DNA from: DASVDK01 sp036381125 [NCBI: Thermodesulfobacteriota bacterium]
GTDB taxonomy: Bacteria; DASVDK01
Assembly (NCBI GenBank): GCA_036381125.1
Contig: DASVDK010000014.1
Span: 1-9,687 of the forward strand
Direction of reading: 5' to 3'
DNA length: 9,687 bases
The position numbers were made by a program, and so were the translations under genes. This document shows, one piece after another, positions 1-9,687 of this stretch (positions within the stretch are counted from its first letter, which is position 1; the number at the start of each line of letters is the position of its first letter). The notes under the pieces were generated by a model. That model did not search any database, was not told where the DNA came from, and saw nothing but the letters and a program-made list of their open reading frames with translations.

Positions 1-57
1 GCTCGCCCGCATCGTCCGGCGCGGATCGGGCATGCCGGCTGCATAGTCCCCGCTCAT
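1..57 (-). CDS. possible 5' start of a divergent gene, truncated by window edge
   Basis: An ATG on the minus strand at 57-55 follows a GGGAAG sequence (68-63) by 5 nt, a good Shine-Dalgarno arrangement. It opens a frame of 19 codons reading MSGDYAAGMPDPRRTMRAS up to the window edge, with mostly G/C third positions. No domain can be recognised in so short a piece. The competing reading is a plus-strand gene tail in frame 2 (ending LARIVRRGSGMPAA, stop at 44-46), which would lie directly upstream of the next plus-strand gene. The two are hard to separate from 57 bases, hence the low confidence. Confidence 0.3.
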   Translation of the reverse strand, partial: MSGDYAAGMPDPRRTMRAS

Positions 58-90
58 CGCGTCTTCCCGGGAGGGTTGACGGGGCGTGCC

Positions 91-750
91 GTGCCGTGTG
101 CACGATGGGCGGCGATGGGGCTCCTGTCCGCCGGAGCGATCTGTCTCGTCCCCTCACCGCTGCACGCATCCCTGGCCGACGTCTTCGTCCCGGGACCGCG
201 CGTCGACCTCGCCATCGAACTCGACTATCGCACGCGGTTCCTCAGCCCGGGTGCCGCGACGGCGGCGTCGGCGGCCGCCGGGGGGATCGGGCGTGAACGG
301 CTCGACGACTCGCGCGCACGCGTGGCGCGCGCCTACCTCGACCGCCTCGGCGACGAGCTCGCCGACGAGCTGATCGAGCAGGTCCCGCTGCTGAGCCTCC
401 TCGAGGCCCGGTACCGCCGGCACGCCAGCCTGAGGCTCGCGGGCGACGACCCCGACGCGGCGGACGAGACGCTCGCGTCCGTGATGCCGCACGCGGAGCC
501 TGGGGTCGACGACCGGTTCTCGCTGCGCCTTCGCGTGAACGCCATCGGGGACGGCTTCGATCTCGCCCCGGGCCTCCACCTCGTGCGGGGCCTCCTCGAG
601 TGGCGCCTCGCCTACCGGCCCTTCACCGAGCGGATCGAGATGACGGCCCGGCGCCCCCTCTCCGACCGCCTGACCCTGGAACTCACCGGCGGCCAGTCCA
701 CCACCCGCGGCGGCCCCGAGGTCCGGCTCGACCTCACCTGGAGCTTCTGA
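91..750 (+). CDS. small secreted protein of unknown function, possibly outer-membrane associated
   Basis: About 219 residues; I do not recognise the family. The N-terminus looks like a Sec signal peptide: an Arg near the start, a hydrophobic stretch (about residues 7-20), then PSPLHA with probable cleavage after Ala26. The mature protein has a charged, probably helical middle (about 66-110, Arg/Glu/Leu-rich). Its C-terminal half has alternating strands (FSLRLRVNAI, LLEWRLAYRPF, RLTLELTGG) and ends in VRLDLTWSF. A terminal amphipathic strand ending in Phe is the usual C-terminal signature of outer-membrane beta-barrel proteins, but the protein is small for a complete barrel. The start is uncertain. 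TTG at 76 abuts a GGGAGGG with no spacer. GTG at 91 has a GGGG 7 nt upstream and keeps an n-region Arg. ATG at 115 removes all positive charge before the hydrophobic core. The frame is open to the left edge, so a start outside the window cannot be excluded, although the signal peptide argues against it. It is the only well-supported plus-strand gene and converges on the glycosyltransferase operon. Confidence 0.7.
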   Translation: MPCARWAAMGLLSAGAICLVPSPLHASLADVFVPGPRVDLAIELDYRTRFLSPGAATAASAAAGGIGRERLDDSRARVARAYLDRLGDELADELIEQVPLLSLLEARYRRHASLRLAGDDPDAADETLASVMPHAEPGVDDRFSLRLRVNAIGDGFDLAPGLHLVRGLLEWRLAYRPFTERIEMTARRPLSDRLTLELTGGQSTTRGGPEVRLDLTWSF

Positions 751-776
751 CCGGATCGGGCCTCAACGCCCGCCGG
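751..776. terminator. hairpin at the convergent gene junction (possible bidirectional terminator)
   Basis: An inverted repeat starts one base after the plus-strand stop codon: CCGG (751-754) pairs with CCGG (773-776), and after a 2-nt bulge CGGGC (757-761) pairs with GCCCG (768-772), leaving a 6-nt loop. The loop region holds the stop codon (763-765) of the minus-strand glycosyltransferase. No T-tract follows on either strand, so this is not a classical intrinsic terminator. Its place between two converging genes is what suggests a termination or transcript-protecting role. In DNA this GC-rich some short inverted repeats arise by chance. Confidence 0.35.
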
Positions 777-2061
777 TGTGGAAAATGGAAAGACCTGACC
801 CCATGGAAAATGGAAAGACCTGACCCCGCGAGTGCGCGACGGCGGCCTCGTAGGCCTCGAGCTGGCGCGGGACGATGCGCGGCCAGGCGAAGCGGTCGAC
901 GACGACGCGGCGGCCGGCCTCGGCGAGCGAGGCGGCGAGGCCGGGGTCGGCGAGGACCCTCAGGGTCTCCCGGGTGAACGCGGCGGCGTCGTCGGCGGCG
1001 AGGTAGTGGCGCCCTGGCTCGAGGTCGAGCCCCTCGCAGCCGAGCGTCGTGGCGACCACCGGCGTCCTCGCGGCCAGGGCGTCGAGCACCTTGAGCCGCG
1101 TGCCGCCGCCGTCGAGGATGGGGCAGACGAAGGCGGCCGCGCGCGCGAAGGCCGGCGCGACGTCCGGCACCTGACCGGCCAGGACGATCCGGGGGTCGAC
1201 CGACGCCGCCCGGCGCAGGTCCGGCGGCGGGTCGCTGCCGACGACCGTGAGTCGGGCATCGCCGCGCGACGCGCGTACGGCCGGCCAGACCTCGCGCAGG
1301 AACCAGCGCAGGCCGTTCGCGTTGGGGAACCACGAGAGCCCGCCGACGAAGAGGAGGTGGCCCGGCTCGGGCGCGCGGCGTACGCGGCCGAGCCGCGCGG
1401 GGTCGGTCCCGTTGGGCACGACGGCCAGCCGGGCGCCGGGCGCCACGGCCGACAGCCGGCCGGCGTCGAGCGCCGAGCAGACGAGGTTCACGGCGGCGGC
1501 CCGCGCGTAGCGCCGCTCGAGCGCGGCGAGCTTGGCCGCCTCGGCCGCGAGGTAGAGCCGGGCCGGCCCCGGACGCGTCGCCGCGGCGCGGCGCGCGGCG
1601 AGGTGCGACTCGACGTTGTGGTGGTCGAGGGCGACCGGGACGCCCGGCACGAGGTCCGCGTGCGGCGCGAGTCCGATCGTGTCGACGTGGACCAGGTCGA
1701 ACCGGGTCGCCGCCGCGGCGCGGGCGACCGCCGCGGCGAAGGCGCGGGAGGCGAAGCGGCGCGCCATGAACGGCCGTGTCGAGAGCCCGGCCGCGAGGAG
1801 CGCCGCCGCGCGGGCGGCGCGCGACCGGTCGGACGGCAGGTTGCAGACGACGACCTCGCGGCAGCGCGACTCGAGCACGCGCACCGCCGCCGCCACCTCC
1901 TCTTGCGTCCGCAGCAGGGCCCGCTGCGTGAAGCTCACGAGGGTGACCTCGTGCGCGGCCGCCGCGCCGGCGAGGAGGTGGGACGCCCGCTGGAGGGCGC
2001 CGCTCACCGGCGGGTGCGGCAGCATGTGCGACAGCCACAGGATCCTCAGGCGCCGGCTCAC
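763..2061 (-). CDS. GT4-family glycosyltransferase with a repeat-derived C-terminal tail
   Basis: A 432-residue cytoplasmic GT-B-fold glycosyltransferase, expected to transfer a sugar from a nucleotide-activated donor to a growing lipid-linked glycan; donor and acceptor cannot be read from sequence. The N-terminal acceptor half begins RILWLSHMLPHPPVSGALQRASHLL (residues 5-30, glycine-containing loop after strand 1) and includes LDHHNVES (145-152), typical of the sugar transferases found in exopolysaccharide and exosortase-associated loci. The donor half has VPNGTD (215-220), LLFVGGLSWFPNANG (236-250) and CPILDGGGTRLKVLDALA (313-330). In that last motif the usual second Glu of the EX7E signature is Asp (D327). 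The fold appears complete by about EAYEAAVAHS (residue 411). The remaining tail, RGQVFPFS through IFHTGGR, is encoded by the 24-bp tandem repeat and flanking DNA and looks acquired. GTG was chosen as start because it overlaps the upstream stop (GTGA, 2061-2058) and immediately precedes strand 1. Last gene of the minus-strand operon. Confidence 0.92.
   Translation of the reverse strand: MSRRLRILWLSHMLPHPPVSGALQRASHLLAGAAAAHEVTLVSFTQRALLRTQEEVAAAVRVLESRCREVVVCNLPSDRSRAARAAALLAAGLSTRPFMARRFASRAFAAAVARAAAATRFDLVHVDTIGLAPHADLVPGVPVALDHHNVESHLAARRAAATRPGPARLYLAAEAAKLAALERRYARAAAVNLVCSALDAGRLSAVAPGARLAVVPNGTDPARLGRVRRAPEPGHLLFVGGLSWFPNANGLRWFLREVWPAVRASRGDARLTVVGSDPPPDLRRAASVDPRIVLAGQVPDVAPAFARAAAFVCPILDGGGTRLKVLDALAARTPVVATTLGCEGLDLEPGRHYLAADDAAAFTRETLRVLADPGLAASLAEAGRRVVVDRFAWPRIVPRQLEAYEAAVAHSRGQVFPFSMGSGLSIFHTGGR
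779..827. repeat. perfect 24-bp tandem duplication at the end of a glycosyltransferase gene
   Basis: Two exact copies of a 24-bp motif lie head to tail with period 25 (779-802 and 804-827). Each begins TGGAAAATGGAAAGACCTGA and ends CCCC; the single spacer base is A at 803. The motif is much more AT-rich than the sequence around it. It is read in frame by the minus-strand gene as codons 412-428. From memory, unverified here, GACCTGACCCC-type motifs (GGGGTCAGGTC on the other strand) recur in many environmental genomes, often near REP-associated tyrosine transposase (Y1/IS200-like) genes. That would make this a dispersed element copy rather than local slippage. No transposase lies in the window. 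Confidence 0.93.
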
Positions 2062-3176
2062 GCCGCGGCCCTCGTCGACGCGAGCCGGCGATAGAGGGCG
2101 ACGTAGCGCGGGCCGGTCGCGTCGATCGTGAAGGCCTCCGCGACGCGCCGCCGCGCCGCCGCGCCGAGCGCGGCCCGCGCGTCGGCGTCGGTTGCGAGCG
2201 CCAGGCAGGCGTCGGCGAGCGCGCGCGGGTCCCCGGGCGGCACGAGGCGCCCCTCGATGCCGTCGCGCACGACCTCCGGCACGCCCCCGACCCGGCTCGC
2301 CACGACCGGCCGCCCCCCGGCCATCGCCTCGAGCAGCGACATCGGGAGCCCCTCGGCGAGCGACGGCAGGACGAAGACGTCCATGGCCGCGAGCCAGCGC
2401 GGCACGTCGGGCCGATGGCCCACGAACCAGGTCCGGCCTGCGAGGCCGAGGGCGGCCGCGCGCGCCTCGAGCGGCGCGCGGAGGGGGCCGTCGCCGACGA
2501 CGAGCAGGCGGACGTCCGGGACGGCGTCGGACAGCAGGCGCACCGCCTCGAGCAGGATGTCGAGCCCCTTGACCGGGACGAGCCGCGCCGCGGTGCCGAG
2601 CACGACGCCGCCCGGCGTCCCGGCCGGCCAGCGCGGCCGATCGGCCGGCACGGCCTCGGGCAGCCGGATGCCGTTCGGGATCAGGCAGATCGAGGGCCCG
2701 ATGCGGGGCGCCAGGCGCCGCGCCATGTCCGCCGACACCGCCACGACGGTCTGGCGGCGGCCGCGGATCACCGCGTGGTCGAGCGCCGTGTAGAGGTCCA
2801 TCTTGAGCCGGGCGAAGCCGGTGTAGCGCTCCGTCAGGCCGTGCACGGTGCACACCGCGGCCGGCACGCCGGCCGCGGCGGCCGCGAGGCCGCCGAGGAT
2901 GTTCTCCTTGTAGCGGTGGGTGTGGACGACGTCGGGACGGAGCCGCCGCAGGGTCCGCACCAGCCGGCCGAGGATCGCGACCGCGCCGAGCCGCGTCTCG
3001 TCGATCACCGTCACCGGCACGTCCGCCTCGCGCAGGCGGCGCGCGAGCTCCCGGTCGTTCAGCACGACGGCGTGTACGTCGAGCGCGGGGTCGCGCCGGA
3101 GGAAGTCGAGGAGGGTGAAGACCTGGACCTCCGCGCCGGCCCAGAGGTCGCCCGAGGCGATGTGCACGACCCTCAT
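2058..3176 (-). CDS. GT4-family glycosyltransferase
   Basis: A 372-residue retaining GT-B glycosyltransferase, of a length typical for GT4. The N-terminal domain starts MRVVHIASGDLWAGAEVQVF (1-20), with the Gly-Ala-Glu loop after strand 1 common in polysaccharide GT4 enzymes. It continues through DVVHTHRYKENILGG (82-96), CTVHG (109-113) and VVAVSADMA (144-152). The donor domain has LIPNGI (165-170), LGTAARLVPVKGLDILLEA (193-211), VVGDGPLR (226-233) and the EX7E motif in AEGLPMSLLEAMAGGRPVVAS (E275 and E283), followed by VGGVPEVVRDG and LVPPGD. All family landmarks are intact. It has no signal peptide or membrane segment and should act in the cytoplasm. ATG overlaps the stop of the upstream glycosyltransferase (ATGA, 3176-3173), and its own stop overlaps the next gene's GTG, so it is probably translationally coupled on both sides. 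The specific sugar is unknown. Confidence 0.93.
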   Translation of the reverse strand: MRVVHIASGDLWAGAEVQVFTLLDFLRRDPALDVHAVVLNDRELARRLREADVPVTVIDETRLGAVAILGRLVRTLRRLRPDVVHTHRYKENILGGLAAAAAGVPAAVCTVHGLTERYTGFARLKMDLYTALDHAVIRGRRQTVVAVSADMARRLAPRIGPSICLIPNGIRLPEAVPADRPRWPAGTPGGVVLGTAARLVPVKGLDILLEAVRLLSDAVPDVRLLVVGDGPLRAPLEARAAALGLAGRTWFVGHRPDVPRWLAAMDVFVLPSLAEGLPMSLLEAMAGGRPVVASRVGGVPEVVRDGIEGRLVPPGDPRALADACLALATDADARAALGAAARRRVAEAFTIDATGPRYVALYRRLASTRAAA

Positions 3177-4336
3177 CGCCGCACGCCGATCATCTCCGCG
3201 TAGAGGGCGTCGTACCGGGCCGCCATGGCGTCGGCGCCGAAGCTCGACTCCACGTGGGCCCGCGCGCTCCCGGCCAGCCGGCGCGCCAGCGTCCGATCGG
3301 CGAGGAGCCGGGCGATCGCGCCCGCGAGCGCCGCGGCGTCGCCGGGCGGCACGAGCAGGCCGGTCTCGCCGTCGCGGACGAGTTCGGGGGTGCCGCCGAC
3401 GGCGGTGGCGACGACCGGCGTGCCGGCCGCCATCGCCTCGAGGAGCGCGAGCGAGAGCCCCTCGGAGAGCGAGGGGAGGACGAAGACGTCGAAGGCATCG
3501 AGGAGGGCGCCGACGTCGTCGCGGAACCCGAGGACGCGGACGCGCCCGGCCACGCCGATCCGCTCGGCCTCGCGCTCGAGGTCCGCGCCGAGGACCGGCC
3601 GGCCGCAGAGGAGCACGGTCAGGTCGGGCCAGTCGCGCACGAGCCGCGCGGCCGCCTGGACGAGGAAGGTATGCCCCTTGACCGGCAGCAGGTTGCCGAT
3701 GGCGCCGACGACCGGCGCCGACTCGGCGACGCCGAGCTCCCGCCGCAGCCGTCGCCCCTCGCCGGGCCGGCGCACCGCGGCGAGGTCGATGCCGTTGTAG
3801 ATGGTGACGAGCCCGTCCGGTCGGACCCCCACCCGCTCGGTGAGGTCCCGCGCGATGTCGCGCGAGACGGCGACCATGCGGAAGGCGGTCTTGCCGACGA
3901 ACCGGTAGGCCAGCCGGCGATGGAGCCGCTCGCCGTAGTACTGCTTGCCGTGGACCGTGGCGACGATCGGCTTGCCCGCCAGCCTGGCCGCGATCGCGCC
4001 GTAGGTATTCATGGCGAATTCGTGGGCATGGAGGAGGTCCACCTGCCACTCCGCCAGCCGCGCGAGGAGCCGCGGGGGCCAGGTGGGGTCGAGGGGGCGT
4101 GCGAGCGGCAGGCTCGTCGCCGGGATCCCGCGCCGGCGCACCTCCTCGTTGAGCCACCCCTCGCGCCAGGTGAGGACGCGCGAGCGGTAGCGCGCGGGAT
4201 CGAGCCGGTCGAGGAGCACGAGCAGCATCCGCTCGGCGCCCCCCGGGTCGGACGTCTCCATCATGTGGAGGATCGTGACCGGGCGCCGAGGCCGAGGGGG
4301 GCTGCCGGGGCTCGCTTCGCGGGGGACGGCGCTCAC
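3173..4336 (-). CDS. GT4-family glycosyltransferase
   Basis: About 387 residues, GT-B fold, GT4-like. After an 18-residue Pro/Arg-rich leader the first strand reads VTILHMMETSDPGGAERMLL (about 20-39), with the GGAE donor-side loop. Then come VDLLHAHEFAMNTYGAIAAR (99-118), IVATVHGKQYYGERLHRRLAYRFVGKT (124-150) and MVAVSRDIA (154-162). The donor domain has TIYNGIDL (178-185), VGAIGNLLPVKGHTFLVQAA (210-229), and the EX7E motif in SEGLSLALLEAMAAGTPVVAT (E292, E300). It should transfer a sugar to a lipid-linked intermediate in the cytoplasm. The start is ambiguous. GTG at 4336 is preferred, but TTG at 4366 (397 residues) and TTG at 4354 are in the same frame, and none has a convincing Shine-Dalgarno. 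This is the loosest junction of the operon, about 48 nt after the PDZ gene's stop (or 18 nt with the longer start). Its own stop overlaps the next glycosyltransferase's ATG. Confidence 0.9.
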   Translation of the reverse strand: MSAVPREASPGSPPRPRRPVTILHMMETSDPGGAERMLLVLLDRLDPARYRSRVLTWREGWLNEEVRRRGIPATSLPLARPLDPTWPPRLLARLAEWQVDLLHAHEFAMNTYGAIAARLAGKPIVATVHGKQYYGERLHRRLAYRFVGKTAFRMVAVSRDIARDLTERVGVRPDGLVTIYNGIDLAAVRRPGEGRRLRRELGVAESAPVVGAIGNLLPVKGHTFLVQAAARLVRDWPDLTVLLCGRPVLGADLEREAERIGVAGRVRVLGFRDDVGALLDAFDVFVLPSLSEGLSLALLEAMAAGTPVVATAVGGTPELVRDGETGLLVPPGDAAALAGAIARLLADRTLARRLAGSARAHVESSFGADAMAARYDALYAEMIGVRR

Positions 4337-4384
4337 GCCGTCCGGGTCCAGCAAGGCACATGCCAAGCCGGACCGGCAGCGGCG

Positions 4385-5017
4385 TCAGGGCTCGCCGACG
4401 GCGACGCGGATCACCTCGTCGCCGCGGCGCGCCTCGACGAGGAGCGGCGACTCGGCATCGGCCGCGTCGAGCGCCTCGAGGAGCGAGGGGACCAGGTGCG
4501 GGTCGTCGCCGTCGAGCTGCCGGCCGTCGACCGCGACGATGAGGTCGCCCGGCCGAAGCCCTGCCCGCACGAGCGGCGTGTCGGGCGGCCCGCCGACGAG
4601 CCTGAGCCCCGCGAACCGCCCCTCCACCTGCGCGCGCGCGAGGCGCGACCCGTGCCGCACGTGCAGCGGGTGGGCGTCGGCGGCGACCGGCCCGGCCTCC
4701 GCAAGGGGCGGGCCGTCGACCGGCTCGAGCGCGCGGCCGCCCGCACGGCCGGTGCGCAGCGTCAGACGACGCCCGGCGTCGTCGACGAGGTCCACCACGC
4801 CCCGCCGCACCGCCGCGAGACGCAGGCCCGGCGCCACCCGGTCCCCCACCCGCCTGGCCACCTGGCGGCCCGTCGCGTCCTCGAAGACGGCCGAGCCGGC
4901 CCTCCCCGGCACGAGCCAGGTGCCGACGAGCCGCGGCGCCGCCTCCTCGGCCGATCCCGCCGCCGGCGCGGCGAGCGCGGCGGCGGCGAGGGCGGCGAGC
5001 AGACGCGCGGCGGTCAC
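4385..5017 (-). CDS. exported GspC-like HR + PDZ domain protein
   Basis: A 210-residue protein. Residues 1-22 (VTAARLLAALAAAALAAPAAGSA) form a hydrophobic signal peptide or anchor, with cleavage likely near AGSA. Residues about 28-90 (RLVGTWLVPGRAGSAVFEDATGRQ, RRVGDRVAPGLRLAAVRRGVVDLVDDAGRRLTLRTG) match the pattern of the HR (homology region) domain of type II secretion protein GspC: small beta-strands with a 'GD' turn and an 'R-L-x-L' end. Residues about 132-208 form a PDZ domain with a FAGLRLVGG strand and AGLRPGDLIVAVDGRQL, the usual GLxxGDxIxxVNG-type core. There is no protease domain, so this is a binding module rather than an HtrA-type enzyme. GspC normally links the inner-membrane T2SS platform to the outer-membrane secretin, yet no other T2SS gene is here. 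GTG is the start because it overlaps the upstream stop (GTGA, 5017-5014). Operon position suggests a periplasmic partner of the lipoprotein or of the export machinery (inference). An ordinary PDZ protein with a chance HR resemblance remains possible. Confidence 0.82.
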   Translation of the reverse strand: MTAARLLAALAAAALAAPAAGSAEEAAPRLVGTWLVPGRAGSAVFEDATGRQVARRVGDRVAPGLRLAAVRRGVVDLVDDAGRRLTLRTGRAGGRALEPVDGPPLAEAGPVAADAHPLHVRHGSRLARAQVEGRFAGLRLVGGPPDTPLVRAGLRPGDLIVAVDGRQLDGDDPHLVPSLLEALDAADAESPLLVEARRGDEVIRVAVGEP

Positions 5018-7137
5018 CGCGGGATCTCGTACACGTGCCGCTCGTAGGGCGCGTACGAGTCGGTGAACGAGCCGTCCTGGTCGGCCGTGACCACGCGGTC
5101 CTCGAAGAGGACCCGGATCCGATCGCCGGCGCGGACCGAGGAGACGCGAAGCCGCGCCGTGAGCGGCTGCCTCCACTCGTTCACCGTGAGGAGCACCTTG
5201 CGCGAGGCCGACTGCCGGTACGCGGTCGCGACGCCGTCGGTGTCGCTCGTGCCGTCCCCCTCCTTGCGGTACTTCTCCGGGTACATCGTGTCGCCCACCT
5301 TCGCGGTGGCGACGGTCCGCCCGAGTTCCACGGCCGAGCCGTGGATCACGTCGGCCAGCGCCCGGATCTCGTCGGTGAGCGGCTTGAACGACCGGTAGTA
5401 GTCGGCGGCCTGCGGGTCGTTCATCCCGGCCGGCGATCCCCAGAACCAGATGCCCCGCCCCCCGTGGACCAGGTTCATGTACAGCGCGGGTCGGTGGTAG
5501 TCGACGCCGAGCCACTTGTCCGGGGTGGTCCGCCCCTCGTAGGCGCGGGTGAGCGCCACGATGTTGAAGAACGCCCGGGTGCCGGCCTGCCGCCGCATCG
5601 ACTCGGCGAAGAGGGCGATCGTCTGGAGCTTGTCGTAGGTCGGGTAGGTGTCGCTCATCTGGAAGTCGGCCAGCTCGAACCCGGCCCGGTGCATGAGCGG
5701 CTTCCAGCCCATCGTCGCCACCGCCGTCGGCACCCCGGGCGCCACGCGGTTGGCGATGGCGCGAAGCTCGAGGACCTGCTCCTCGAGGCTCCCCCAGTAC
5801 TGGTCCTCGTGGTCCCACTCGTCCTTGAGGTAGACGAAGGGGACGTGCGGGTTCGACTTGACGAGGTTCGTCATGGCCCGCTCGAAGACCTTCGTGACCC
5901 CTCGCCAGGTGCCGTCGTAGAGCTCCTGGTAGCCGGGACCGCCGTAGGTCATCGTCTTGCCCATCATCTTGACGAACGCCTGCCACGTGTCCTGGAACGC
6001 GATGGGCGACGTGAAGAGCCCCTCGCGCACCGAGGTCTCCATGAGCGTCGTGATGCCCATCTGCTCCTGCGGCCGGCCCGCGCCGTCGACCCAGGTCCAG
6101 TGCCCCTCCGCCCACCAGCGCCGGCCGTTGCCCTCGGCGTAGCCGACGGCGATGTTCGTGTTGGCGCCCATCAGGTTGGCCGCCTTGTACTGGTTCGCGT
6201 CGTTGACGGCCGAGGGCATGTTCACGATGATCGGCACGTACGGCCGCCCCTGCCGGTCGTAGAGCTTCCCGTCGGCCATGACGGGGGTCGTCGCCGGCCA
6301 GAAGCCGGCCACCGGCGCGCGGCTCGGGATCGGCCCCTGGGCCGCGATGATGCGGTGGACGAGCATCGACCCGTAGAACTCGTTCCCCCCGTAGGTGCCG
6401 CCGCCGATGCGGATCCGGTAGCGGCCGTCCCCCTCGCGCGGAGCGTTTCCCGGGATCGCCAGCACGACGCGCTTCCAGCGGTGGTCGCGCTTCGCCTCGA
6501 GTTCCCCGAGCGAGACCGGGCCGATCTTCACGCTCGGGCCGTTCCCCTTGGGCCGGTAGGGGTCGAGCTTCGGCGAGAAGAGGTTGTCCTTGTACTCGAA
6601 GGCGACGTGCGTGCTCGTGCCCGGGACGTAGACGTCGGCCGGGTAGGTCGGCACGATGGCGCGCCAACGCACGAAGCCGCTGCCGCCGTCGGGCAGCTCG
6701 TCGGCGGAGGCGTACGGCCAGAAGCCCTCGGGATCGCCCGGCCGCTCGTAGCCGGCCGGCCCGTTCCACGCGTACGCCCCGTCCTGGTCGCCGGAGACGA
6801 TCTGGATCGGCCCGCTTCCCTTGTCGTTCGCGTCGCCGAGCGTGCGCGAGACGGCCTGGCTGCCGAGAGCGGCGTCGGGCCAGCCGAGCGGCCCGCCGAT
6901 GGGGCCGCCGTCGCCGGGGTCGCCGGTGCCCGGCTCGCTGCCGGGATCACCGGTCCCCGGCTCGTTTCCTGGATCACCGGTGCCCGGGTTGCCCCCGGGG
7001 TCCGTGCCGTTGCCCGCGTCCTGACCCGGCCCGGCTCCCCCCGAAAGCTGGTCGGGCGTGACGGCGGCGCCGCACGCCGTCGCGAAGAGCCACAACGCCG
7101 CCACAGCGGCCGCTCCGAGCCGTCGTCGTCCCTGCAT
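5014..7137 (-). CDS. large lipoprotein with glycoside-hydrolase-like barrel
   Basis: A 707-residue protein starting at ATG 7137, with AGGGAGGGG 4 nt upstream (7150-7142), the clearest ribosome site in the window. Residues 1-21 form a signal peptide (basic RRR, hydrophobic core) ending FATA-C22, a plausible though not ideal lipobox (Ala at -3), so it is probably lipid-anchored in the periplasm or outer membrane. Residues about 36-82 are a Gly/Pro/Asp low-complexity linker with a GTGDPGxEP repeat. About 85-265 is beta-rich and Trp/Tyr-rich, probably a carbohydrate-binding-like sandwich. About 285-600 looks like a TIM barrel: RPYVPIIVNM (298-307), FVYLKDEW (434-441), DFQMSDTYPTYD (491-502), RAFFNIVALTRAYEG (521-535), GGRGIWFWGSP (559-569). 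DE(W) at 439-441 resembles the acid/base 'DEP' site of several uncharacterised glycosidase families, and E534 is a candidate second acid. About 605-705 is a C-terminal beta domain. The exact family and substrate are unknown. First gene of its block, with likely promoter elements upstream; its stop overlaps the PDZ gene's start. Confidence 0.8.
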   Translation of the reverse strand: MQGRRRLGAAAVAALWLFATACGAAVTPDQLSGGAGPGQDAGNGTDPGGNPGTGDPGNEPGTGDPGSEPGTGDPGDGGPIGGPLGWPDAALGSQAVSRTLGDANDKGSGPIQIVSGDQDGAYAWNGPAGYERPGDPEGFWPYASADELPDGGSGFVRWRAIVPTYPADVYVPGTSTHVAFEYKDNLFSPKLDPYRPKGNGPSVKIGPVSLGELEAKRDHRWKRVVLAIPGNAPREGDGRYRIRIGGGTYGGNEFYGSMLVHRIIAAQGPIPSRAPVAGFWPATTPVMADGKLYDRQGRPYVPIIVNMPSAVNDANQYKAANLMGANTNIAVGYAEGNGRRWWAEGHWTWVDGAGRPQEQMGITTLMETSVREGLFTSPIAFQDTWQAFVKMMGKTMTYGGPGYQELYDGTWRGVTKVFERAMTNLVKSNPHVPFVYLKDEWDHEDQYWGSLEEQVLELRAIANRVAPGVPTAVATMGWKPLMHRAGFELADFQMSDTYPTYDKLQTIALFAESMRRQAGTRAFFNIVALTRAYEGRTTPDKWLGVDYHRPALYMNLVHGGRGIWFWGSPAGMNDPQAADYYRSFKPLTDEIRALADVIHGSAVELGRTVATAKVGDTMYPEKYRKEGDGTSDTDGVATAYRQSASRKVLLTVNEWRQPLTARLRVSSVRAGDRIRVLFEDRVVTADQDGSFTDSYAPYERHVYEIPR
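6914..6994 (-). repeat. 27-bp in-frame tandem repeat encoding the lipoprotein linker
   Basis: Three adjacent 27-bp units (6914-6940, 6941-6967, 6968-6994) with about 20-22 of 27 bases identical between neighbours, and a more degenerate fourth to about 7021. They encode the 9-residue unit GTGDPG-(N/S)EP around residues 48-75, just after the lipidated cysteine. The multiple-of-three length keeps the frame, so copy number could vary without breaking the gene. A flexible Gly/Pro/Asp spacer of this kind typically holds an extracytoplasmic domain away from the membrane surface. Confidence 0.85.
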
Positions 7138-7197
7138 GTGACCCCTCCCTCGCCGGTCGGCAAAGCTACGTCCAGGTTGGCAACCGAGCGGGGCGCA

Positions 7198-7215
7198 AAG
7201 CAGGCGCTATGCCTC
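7198..7215 (-). promoter_or_regulatory. candidate sigma-54 (-24/-12) promoter of the lipoprotein operon
   Basis: On the minus strand the sequence GAGGCATAGCGCCTGCTT has the diagnostic GG (7213-7212) and GC (7201-7200) separated by exactly 10 nt, with GGCA at the -24 side and TGCT at the -12 side. The preferred T before GG and the first T of TTGC are missing, so the match is partial. Transcription would start near 7188, giving a leader of about 50 nt that includes the strong ribosome site. It lies in the only sizeable gap of the minus-strand run, just downstream of a sigma-54 activator gene. A second GG-N10-GC match (TGG at 7174-7172, TTTGC at 7164-7160) would start transcription inside the ribosome site and is less likely. 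Confidence 0.35.
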
Positions 7216-7320
7216 TCGCGGCGCCGCGTGAGCGCCCGCACGAGCGTCGGGGCTAACGGCGCGGGGTCAGGACGGTGGGGATGCCGTGGTTACGGGAGGA
7301 TACCGGGACGGGCGGTGACA

Positions 7321-7344
7321 GATCCGTGACGGCGTGAACGGATC
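7321..7344. promoter_or_regulatory. inverted repeat, candidate activator (UAS) site
   Basis: Perfect 7-bp arms GATCCGT (7321-7327) and ACGGATC (7338-7344) flank a 10-bp centre. The repeat sits 4 bp past the response regulator's stop codon and about 135-155 bp upstream of the start point predicted from the -24/-12 candidate, the usual distance for an NtrC-type enhancer site. No T-tract follows the repeat in the direction of the upstream gene, so a terminator role for that gene is less convincing, though not excluded. The remaining sequence of the 7138-7348 gap shows only GC-rich DNA and a 12-bp CGCG-type palindrome (7217-7228). Confidence 0.35.
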
Positions 7345-7348
7345 CGCA

Positions 7349-8799
<1,451 letters not shown>

Positions 8800-8803
<4 letters not shown>

Positions 8804-9687
8804 GAAGCCAGCCTCCGCCGCGGATCGGGGTAGGCGCGGCCGGCGGCGCCTCGCGCGGCCGGCAGGACGATGCGGAAGGTGGCGCCGCGGCCCGGCTCGC
8901 TCGAGACCTCGATGCCGCCGCGGTGGCACGTGACGATCTTCTGCACGGTGGCGAGCCCGACGCCGGAGCCCTCGGGCTTCGTCGTGAAGAACGGATAGAA
9001 GATGGAGTCCATGATGTCCGGCGCGATGCCGGGGCCGGTGTCGCCGACGGTGATCGTCACGCCCGGCCCCGGCGAGGAGCCGGTCGCGAGGGTCAGGGTG
9101 CCGCCGCGGTCGCGCATCGCCTCGATCGCGTTCGTCAGGAGGTTGCAGACCGCCTCGCGCAGCCGGTTCGCGTCGCCGGTAACCGGCGGCAGCGCCTCGG
9201 CCAGGTCGAGCCGCACCTCGATCGGCGCGGCGGCCTCGGCGAGCGCCGCCTCGGCCAGCGCCAGCGCCTCGCGCACGGTGTCGTTCACCGAGACCTCGCC
9301 GAGGTCGAGGGCGAGGGGGCGGAGGTACGTGAGGCAGCGGTTGACGGTCTCCTCGAGCTTGCGCACCTCGGTGATGATGGCGTCGATCAGGTCCGCCTCC
9401 TGGGGCGAGGCCTCGATGCGGCGCCTGAGCATGGTGGCCGACAGCCGGATGCCGGCCAGCGGGTTGCGCATCTCGTGGGCGATCGTGGCGGCCATGGCGC
9501 CGACGGCCGCCAGGCGCTCGCGGGCGAGCGTCGTCTCGACGCCCGTCTCGATCTGCGAGAGCGCCCTGAGGAGGACGAGGGCGCCGAGCAGGCGCCCCTG
9601 GTCGTCGCGGGCGGCGTGGACGGTGAAGCCGACCGCCCGCTCCCGTCCCCCCACCACCACCGCTGCCTCGGCCTTGTCGGCCGTCGA
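8800..9687 (-). CDS. NtrB-type PAS sensor histidine kinase, 5'-truncated by window edge
   Basis: 295 residues are visible; the frame stays open to the right edge, so the N-terminal sensing part is missing. Visible residues about 1-45 (VGGRERAVGFTVHAARDDQGRLLGALVLLRALS) look like the last strands of a PAS domain. HisKA follows with the phosphoacceptor H71 in TIAHEMRNPLAGIRLSA. HATPase_c has the N box CNLLTNAIEAM (181-191), G1 DTGPGIAP (216-223), an F box YPFFTTKP (231-238) and G2 GSGVGLATVQ (240-249). The HEMRNPL and FFTTK forms are typical of NtrB/AtoS-like kinases that pair with NtrC-type regulators. No membrane segment is in the visible part. It should autophosphorylate on H71 and pass phosphate to D52 of the regulator whose start codon overlaps this gene's stop. 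The signal sensed cannot be deduced here. The segment ends ...DPRRRLAS. Confidence 0.95.

Follow-up and report, generated by a model that had tools for sequence, protein, structure and literature searches.

A glycosyltransferase gene in the DNA of a Thermodesulfobacteriota bacterium ends in a pair of short direct repeats (contig DASVDK010000014.1, positions 1 to 9,687; this whole stretch of 9,687 nucleotides is the window referred to below). Comparison with sequences from other genomes makes it likely that the repeat consists of two terminal-inverted-repeat units of the TIRYT/RAYT type in direct orientation, present without a transposase and extending the open reading frame (ORF) of the glycosyltransferase. 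The features are arranged as follows:

76 to 750, plus strand: convergent gene from the ORF list, 224 aa as listed, ending ...TWSF
751 to 776, no strand assigned: terminator-like hairpin between the convergent genes, with the glycosyltransferase stop codon in its loop (-8.2 kcal/mol as DNA)
763 to 2061, minus strand: GT4-type glycosyltransferase, 432 aa, from the translation and matches to Pfam GT4-type families; the closest NCBIfam model, TIGR03087 (PEP-CTERM/XrtA), scores below its cut-off
763 to 828, minus strand: codons 412-432 plus stop, the tail made by the repeat and flanking DNA, from the translation and a structure model
779 to 802, minus strand: unit copy 2, a perfect direct repeat of copy 1
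803, minus strand: spacer of 1 bp, making the period 25 bp
804 to 827, minus strand: unit copy 1, gene-proximal, with its GGGG tip toward the glycosyltransferase and the GGGGTCAGGTC common to RAYT-flanking repeats

The two perfect tandem copies of a 24-bp motif described in an earlier note on this DNA are both present. The unit, GGGGTCAGGTCTTTCCATTTTCCA, occurs exactly twice in the window, both times on the minus strand, against a mean of 0.00 in 200 shuffles of the window; no third copy was found in the window at up to 3 mismatches, and the pair is the window's only exact direct repeat of at least 20 bases. The same note called the motif AT-rich, which holds in a relative sense only, the unit having 49% G+C in a window of 74%. 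The first 11 bp of the unit are GGGGTCAGGTC, and the GGGGTCAG that starts both copies fits GGGGWSAS, the consensus of TIRYT terminal inverted repeats (Di Nocera et al. 2013, PMC3733652). The two direct copies, 25 bp apart, agree with the occurrence of such units in dimers and clusters and are like the arrays of an acidobacterial genome described below. The unit forms no hairpin (-0.2 kcal/mol, with 139 of 200 shuffles folding at least as well), and GTAG and GTGG are absent from both of its strands as read from the sequence. Eight window proteins were scanned with profiles and none matched a Y1 transposase; when three RAYTs served as tblastn queries on the full window, no hit fell below E 0.3.

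The core of the unit recurs at RAYT genes of other genomes. We compared 130 loci with RAYT genes (PF01797) from Omnitrophota, Acidobacteriota and Gemmatimonadota, a non-random sample of which 90 were supplied by the search and 40 were chosen by hand from match lists, mostly for long reading frames. The core GGG[AT]CAGGTC is present in 18 of the 130 (6 of the 90 supplied and 12 of the 40 chosen), a count that includes matches not at RAYT gene ends (for example L169, L195, L281 and L299), versus 2 of 130 for the reversed core and 2 of 130 for a shuffled core. It is absent from the other 112, and several of the 18 carry it away from the gene ends. Eight loci have an outward-facing pair of cores around the RAYT gene (L180, L280, L290, L291, L293, L294, L307 and L308), with one extra copy in L291, while in L183 inverted core dimers lie on both sides. 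It is an extended core that the window unit has in common with the RAYT-gene ends of these nine loci, none of which is among the 30 Gemmatimonadota loci; the RAYT frames of the eight other than L183 are 284-325 aa.

Identity as a RAYT was checked with NF047646 (REP-associated tyrosine transposase) for two of the nine flanked loci, L180 and L183, and both pass its cut-off. Their HuH and tyrosine motifs, NHYH and YVVLNP, are similar to the ones that Quentin et al. 2018 (PMC6006769) list for subclasses 2.1 and 2.3, and the same authors regard subclass 2.1 as the probable equivalent of TIRYTs. C-terminal HTH matches are weak and below cut-off. In 4 of 20 core-bearing RAYT loci (L301, L308, L375 and L378), the stop codon of the RAYT gene is a TGA within its own terminal repeat (GACC-TGA-CCC); in these the element also shapes the end of its own transposase. 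A separate Omnitrophota RAYT, L093, scores just below the NF047646 cut-off and has GGGACAGGTCTGAGATTGG repeats whose gene-adjacent tips point inward and whose outer ends are AGAACCGTCCCTA. Because of those inward tips, we dropped it as an instance of the flanked arrangement and regard it only as a cousin, possibly a related but differently arranged element.

Dispersal of the core could be followed in one acidobacterial genome, G005, where GGGGTCAGGTC occurs 102 times versus one match to the reversed control. The 23-bp unit GGGGTCAGGTCACGATTCGTGAG accounts exactly for 92 of the 102 copies, and 96 lie within 3 substitutions of it. Fifteen inverted pairs are spaced exactly 101 bp, and direct arrays reach six units, with spacings of 24-25 among others; seven of the 38 clusters are direct-only arrays of at least two units. 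One locus, L265, closely parallels the window: its units, three in direct order, follow each other at 24-25 bp, the gene calls converge, and a hairpin lies alongside (-35.7 kcal/mol as RNA, 60 bases). By tblastn, a RAYT gene is present in 1 of 33 stretches of this genome. Gene calls made with our own codon-usage script place 89 of 97 units between genes, three at gene 3' ends, four inside genes and one at a 5' end. A preference for convergent placement was considered and rejected (8 of 32 clusters versus 5 of 23 other gene pairs). A tendency to lie close to 3' ends is borne out, with 18 of 34 overlapping such an end or no more than 30 bp from it, versus 6 of 33 for 5' ends. Another genome, G048, has 8 core copies versus one control match, five of them with a TTTA-type tail.

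Overall, the core was seen in Acidobacteriota, Omnitrophota and Pseudomonadota, with genome-specific tails. Among 249 Pseudomonadota genomes, 55 contain GGGGTCAGGTCTT, with 196 matches versus 22 for the control (summed from the table); a single genome accounts for 53 of the 196, many of the matches that occur singly look like chance, and other genomes have tails such as GCATTACGACATT. At L375, L376 and L378, Pseudomonadota loci that were themselves picked by the motif, RAYT genes lie between inverted copies. There was no clear excess in 150 Gemmatimonadota genomes (17 matches to the 13-mer versus 11 for the control, summed). Neither the exact 24-mer nor its first 20 bases were found in viral contigs. 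The 15-mer occurs there in 41 stretches, versus 15 for the reversed pattern, each with a single core within 300 bp and no tandem or inverted copies; we rejected these as copies of the element and, from their flanks, judged them ordinary matches. A plasmid search gave six weak matches. A 23-base pattern gave only 0, 3 and 2 matches in sets of 30, 247 and 249 genomes, the last two searched at 3 mismatches, so that the tail variant of the window was found nowhere else searched. Of those five 3-mismatch matches (L064, L065, L066, L097 and L098), two (L064 and L065) lie at one homologous place inside an ORF, taken as a probable sulfate adenylyltransferase at L065 and by like sequence at L064, and a core match at L015 also falls inside an ORF. 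Literature searches for the motif strings brought up nothing relevant, as judged by titles and the beginnings of abstracts.

Could the pair be no more than a local tandem duplication of ordinary host DNA by slippage, its resemblance to RAYT tips being accidental? Such an origin would account for there being just two copies, both here and with no other in the window, and for an exact unit found nowhere else searched. We nevertheless consider it quite unlikely, as the first 11 bases are identical to those of units in G005, G048 and several RAYT loci, in the same position at the tip, and the unit's 49% G+C is sharply unlike the window's 74%. Slippage may still have been the source of the second copy.

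A unit of the TIRYT/RAYT type, the reading we prefer, can be set against several known systems. Like TIRtrons and TIRYTs, as described in PMC3733652, it has a tip that fits GGGGWSAS and occurs in dimers and clusters, the core flanking a RAYT-type gene in other genomes and being dispersed in G005, often just past gene ends. It differs in that the window has two direct units only, with no transposase match, and in that the tail of the unit, TTTCCATTTTCCA, was found in no other genome searched. REPs and REPINs are likewise RAYT-linked dispersed short repeats, and the fixed-spacing inverted pairs of G005 resemble REPINs; the window unit, however, lacks the GT[AG]G foot and the hairpin of the canonical forms. 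According to PMC3733652, such RAYT-linked repeats can reach into the ends of genes and provide their stop codons; the paper also describes ORFs with REP-encoded residues, internal or terminal, and the RPE elements of R. conorii. The latter two share with the window the translation of repeat DNA within a host protein, but involve GTAG/CGTC repeats or RPE palindromes, whereas the window has a TIRYT-type tip at the C-terminus of a glycosyltransferase. Judged by its sequence, the window clearly adds a case to a kind of event already known and is no new system. The suggestion in the earlier note that the motif resembles elements found beside RAYT genes is borne out by the core, which in other genomes belongs to a dispersed repeat family flanking such genes.

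The glycosyltransferase ORF crosses both copies of the unit without a stop and ends at the TGA at 763-765. The copies had been described as translated in frame; they are indeed passed without a stop, but because the period is 25 bp they are read in two different frames, as RGQVFPFS and then GSGLSIFH. The enzyme scores 198 bits against TIGR03087 (stp1, the XrtA/PEP-CTERM glycosyltransferase), for which the curated cut-off is 316.65; it is only a related GT4 enzyme, not a member of that family. In a structure model built with 28 sequences (mean pLDDT 93.7), the last helix ends at residue 411, in agreement with the proposed end of the GT4 fold. The tail beyond is poorly ordered, with pLDDT below 50 for residues 419-432, and it is residues 412-432, up to the TGA, that come from the repeat and neighboring DNA, much as the note had proposed.

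Homologues were sought in genome contigs, which gave 63 loci (best full-length match 40%, with a partial one at 45%), and in 149 acidobacterial genomes at E <= 1e-60, two of which had a match (best 42%). For the comparison of C-termini we kept the 32 homologues whose match starts by query residue 20 and reaches residue 380, and left out one locus repeating another gene. After Y404 the window protein has 28 residues in the alignment, versus a median of 10 and a range of 0-21 in the homologues, and not one of the 32 has a tail as long. This agrees with the earlier view that the protein has been extended. Full-length homologues in the genome contigs and the acidobacterial genomes reach at most 42% identity, so that the native C-terminus can be placed only approximately.

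The tail might instead have long belonged to this glycosyltransferase subfamily as a functional segment, with no more than a likeness to the element. The ORF is intact, the homologues compared include no close orthologue, and the alignment with L245 continues beyond residue 411 by a few positions and crosses a stop codon in that locus. Equal length in none of the 32 homologues speaks against this, as do the low-confidence prediction for the tail and its codons, which form a perfect DNA repeat in two frames and no repeated peptide; we hold an old functional tail to be very improbable.

Gene ends made by the unit, comparable to the proposed extension, were found in G005. There, three unrelated genes, encoding a HisS-like protein, a YwiC-like protein and a GDPD phosphodiesterase, take their last residues and stop from the unit, ending ...SRIVT* at L255 and ...GSGHDS* at L263 and L262. 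For the HisS-like and GDPD genes, 19 loci each were compared, out of 32 and 29 other genomes with matches. The core is absent from all of these relatives of L255 and L263 (0 of 19 and 0 of 19), and each ORF ends on its own stop. By comparison of gene ends, the G005 units are an analogue, in another genome, of the extension proposed for the glycosyltransferase.

The event that extended the protein is perhaps best approached by removing the repeat in silico. Removal of 48 or 51 nt gives a protein of 416 or 415 aa, near homologue length, that keeps the present stop, while removal of the exact 49-bp array gives a longer one of 466 aa, so that a clean 49-bp insertion is disfavored by the present sequence. 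The original stop codon was earlier supposed to have been removed; if the net insertion was of 48 or 51 nt, however, today's stop would be the native one and may never have been lost.

A plausible course of events can be outlined. A RAYT in the host would have placed a unit between two convergent genes, with its GGGG tip toward the glycosyltransferase, and the second copy would have come either from a local duplication or from a repeated insertion. All three frames of the window unit are open when it is entered from the tip, and an insertion with the tip toward a gene would therefore extend the ORF in whatever frame; in the opposite direction one frame has a TGA. Two of five other units checked are also open in all three frames tip-first, and the reverse reading of the core contains TGA. 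In the window the ORF crosses both copies and terminates at the TGA in the adjoining hairpin, giving a 432-aa product with about 17-21 extra residues that are probably unstructured and near-neutral, a tail presumably of little effect. Part of the tail was said to come from DNA next to the hairpin; the hairpin, at 751-776, itself carries the glycosyltransferase stop codon, which lies in the loop. Folds of equal or better energy were given by 10 of 200 shuffles.

Copy number would matter to the C-terminus, as one copy predicts a protein of 474 aa running into the convergent gene, two copies 432 and three copies 450. Short direct repeats are prone to miscounting, and with an assembly error the array might in truth have one or several copies and the protein a different C-terminus (474 aa for one copy, 450 for three), but sequencing reads are usually longer than a 49-bp array and G005 has direct arrays of similar spacing, which leaves such an error with very little likelihood. 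A more speculative proposal, to which we give only the slightest chance, is that the unit acts as a C-terminal switch: being open in three frames, with each 25-bp copy shifting the frame by one, it would alter the end of the enzyme by gain or loss of copies. If this were true, arrays of TIRYT units close to the ends of genes would serve as contingency loci for the C-termini of proteins.

If the glycosyltransferase was extended by a TIRYT/RAYT-type pair, the case illustrates how a little-studied class of RAYT-linked repeats may rewrite protein ends, and the 11-bp core, from three phyla, offers a simple search handle. A functional role in the enzyme should be assumed for residues 412-432 only after a test.

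Other genes of the window can be described briefly. Neither the 224-aa convergent protein nor the product of a 707-aa ORF (5014-7137, minus strand) has a Pfam or NCBIfam match at E <= 0.001. The 707-aa ORF contains three near-repeats with 27-bp spacing (6909-7002), which sit close to the lipoprotein-like N-terminus, in a stretch rich in G, D, P and E. An NtrC-type response regulator and a histidine kinase are encoded at 7349-9687 on the minus strand; the PEP-CTERM models TIGR02915 and TIGR02916 score below cut-off for them and are outscored by other models. Directly upstream of the glycosyltransferase lie two more GT4 genes (2058-4366, minus strand), with TIGR03088 (stp2) as best match, below cut-off, and the glycosyltransferase genes overlap by a few bases, at 2058-2061 and at 3173.
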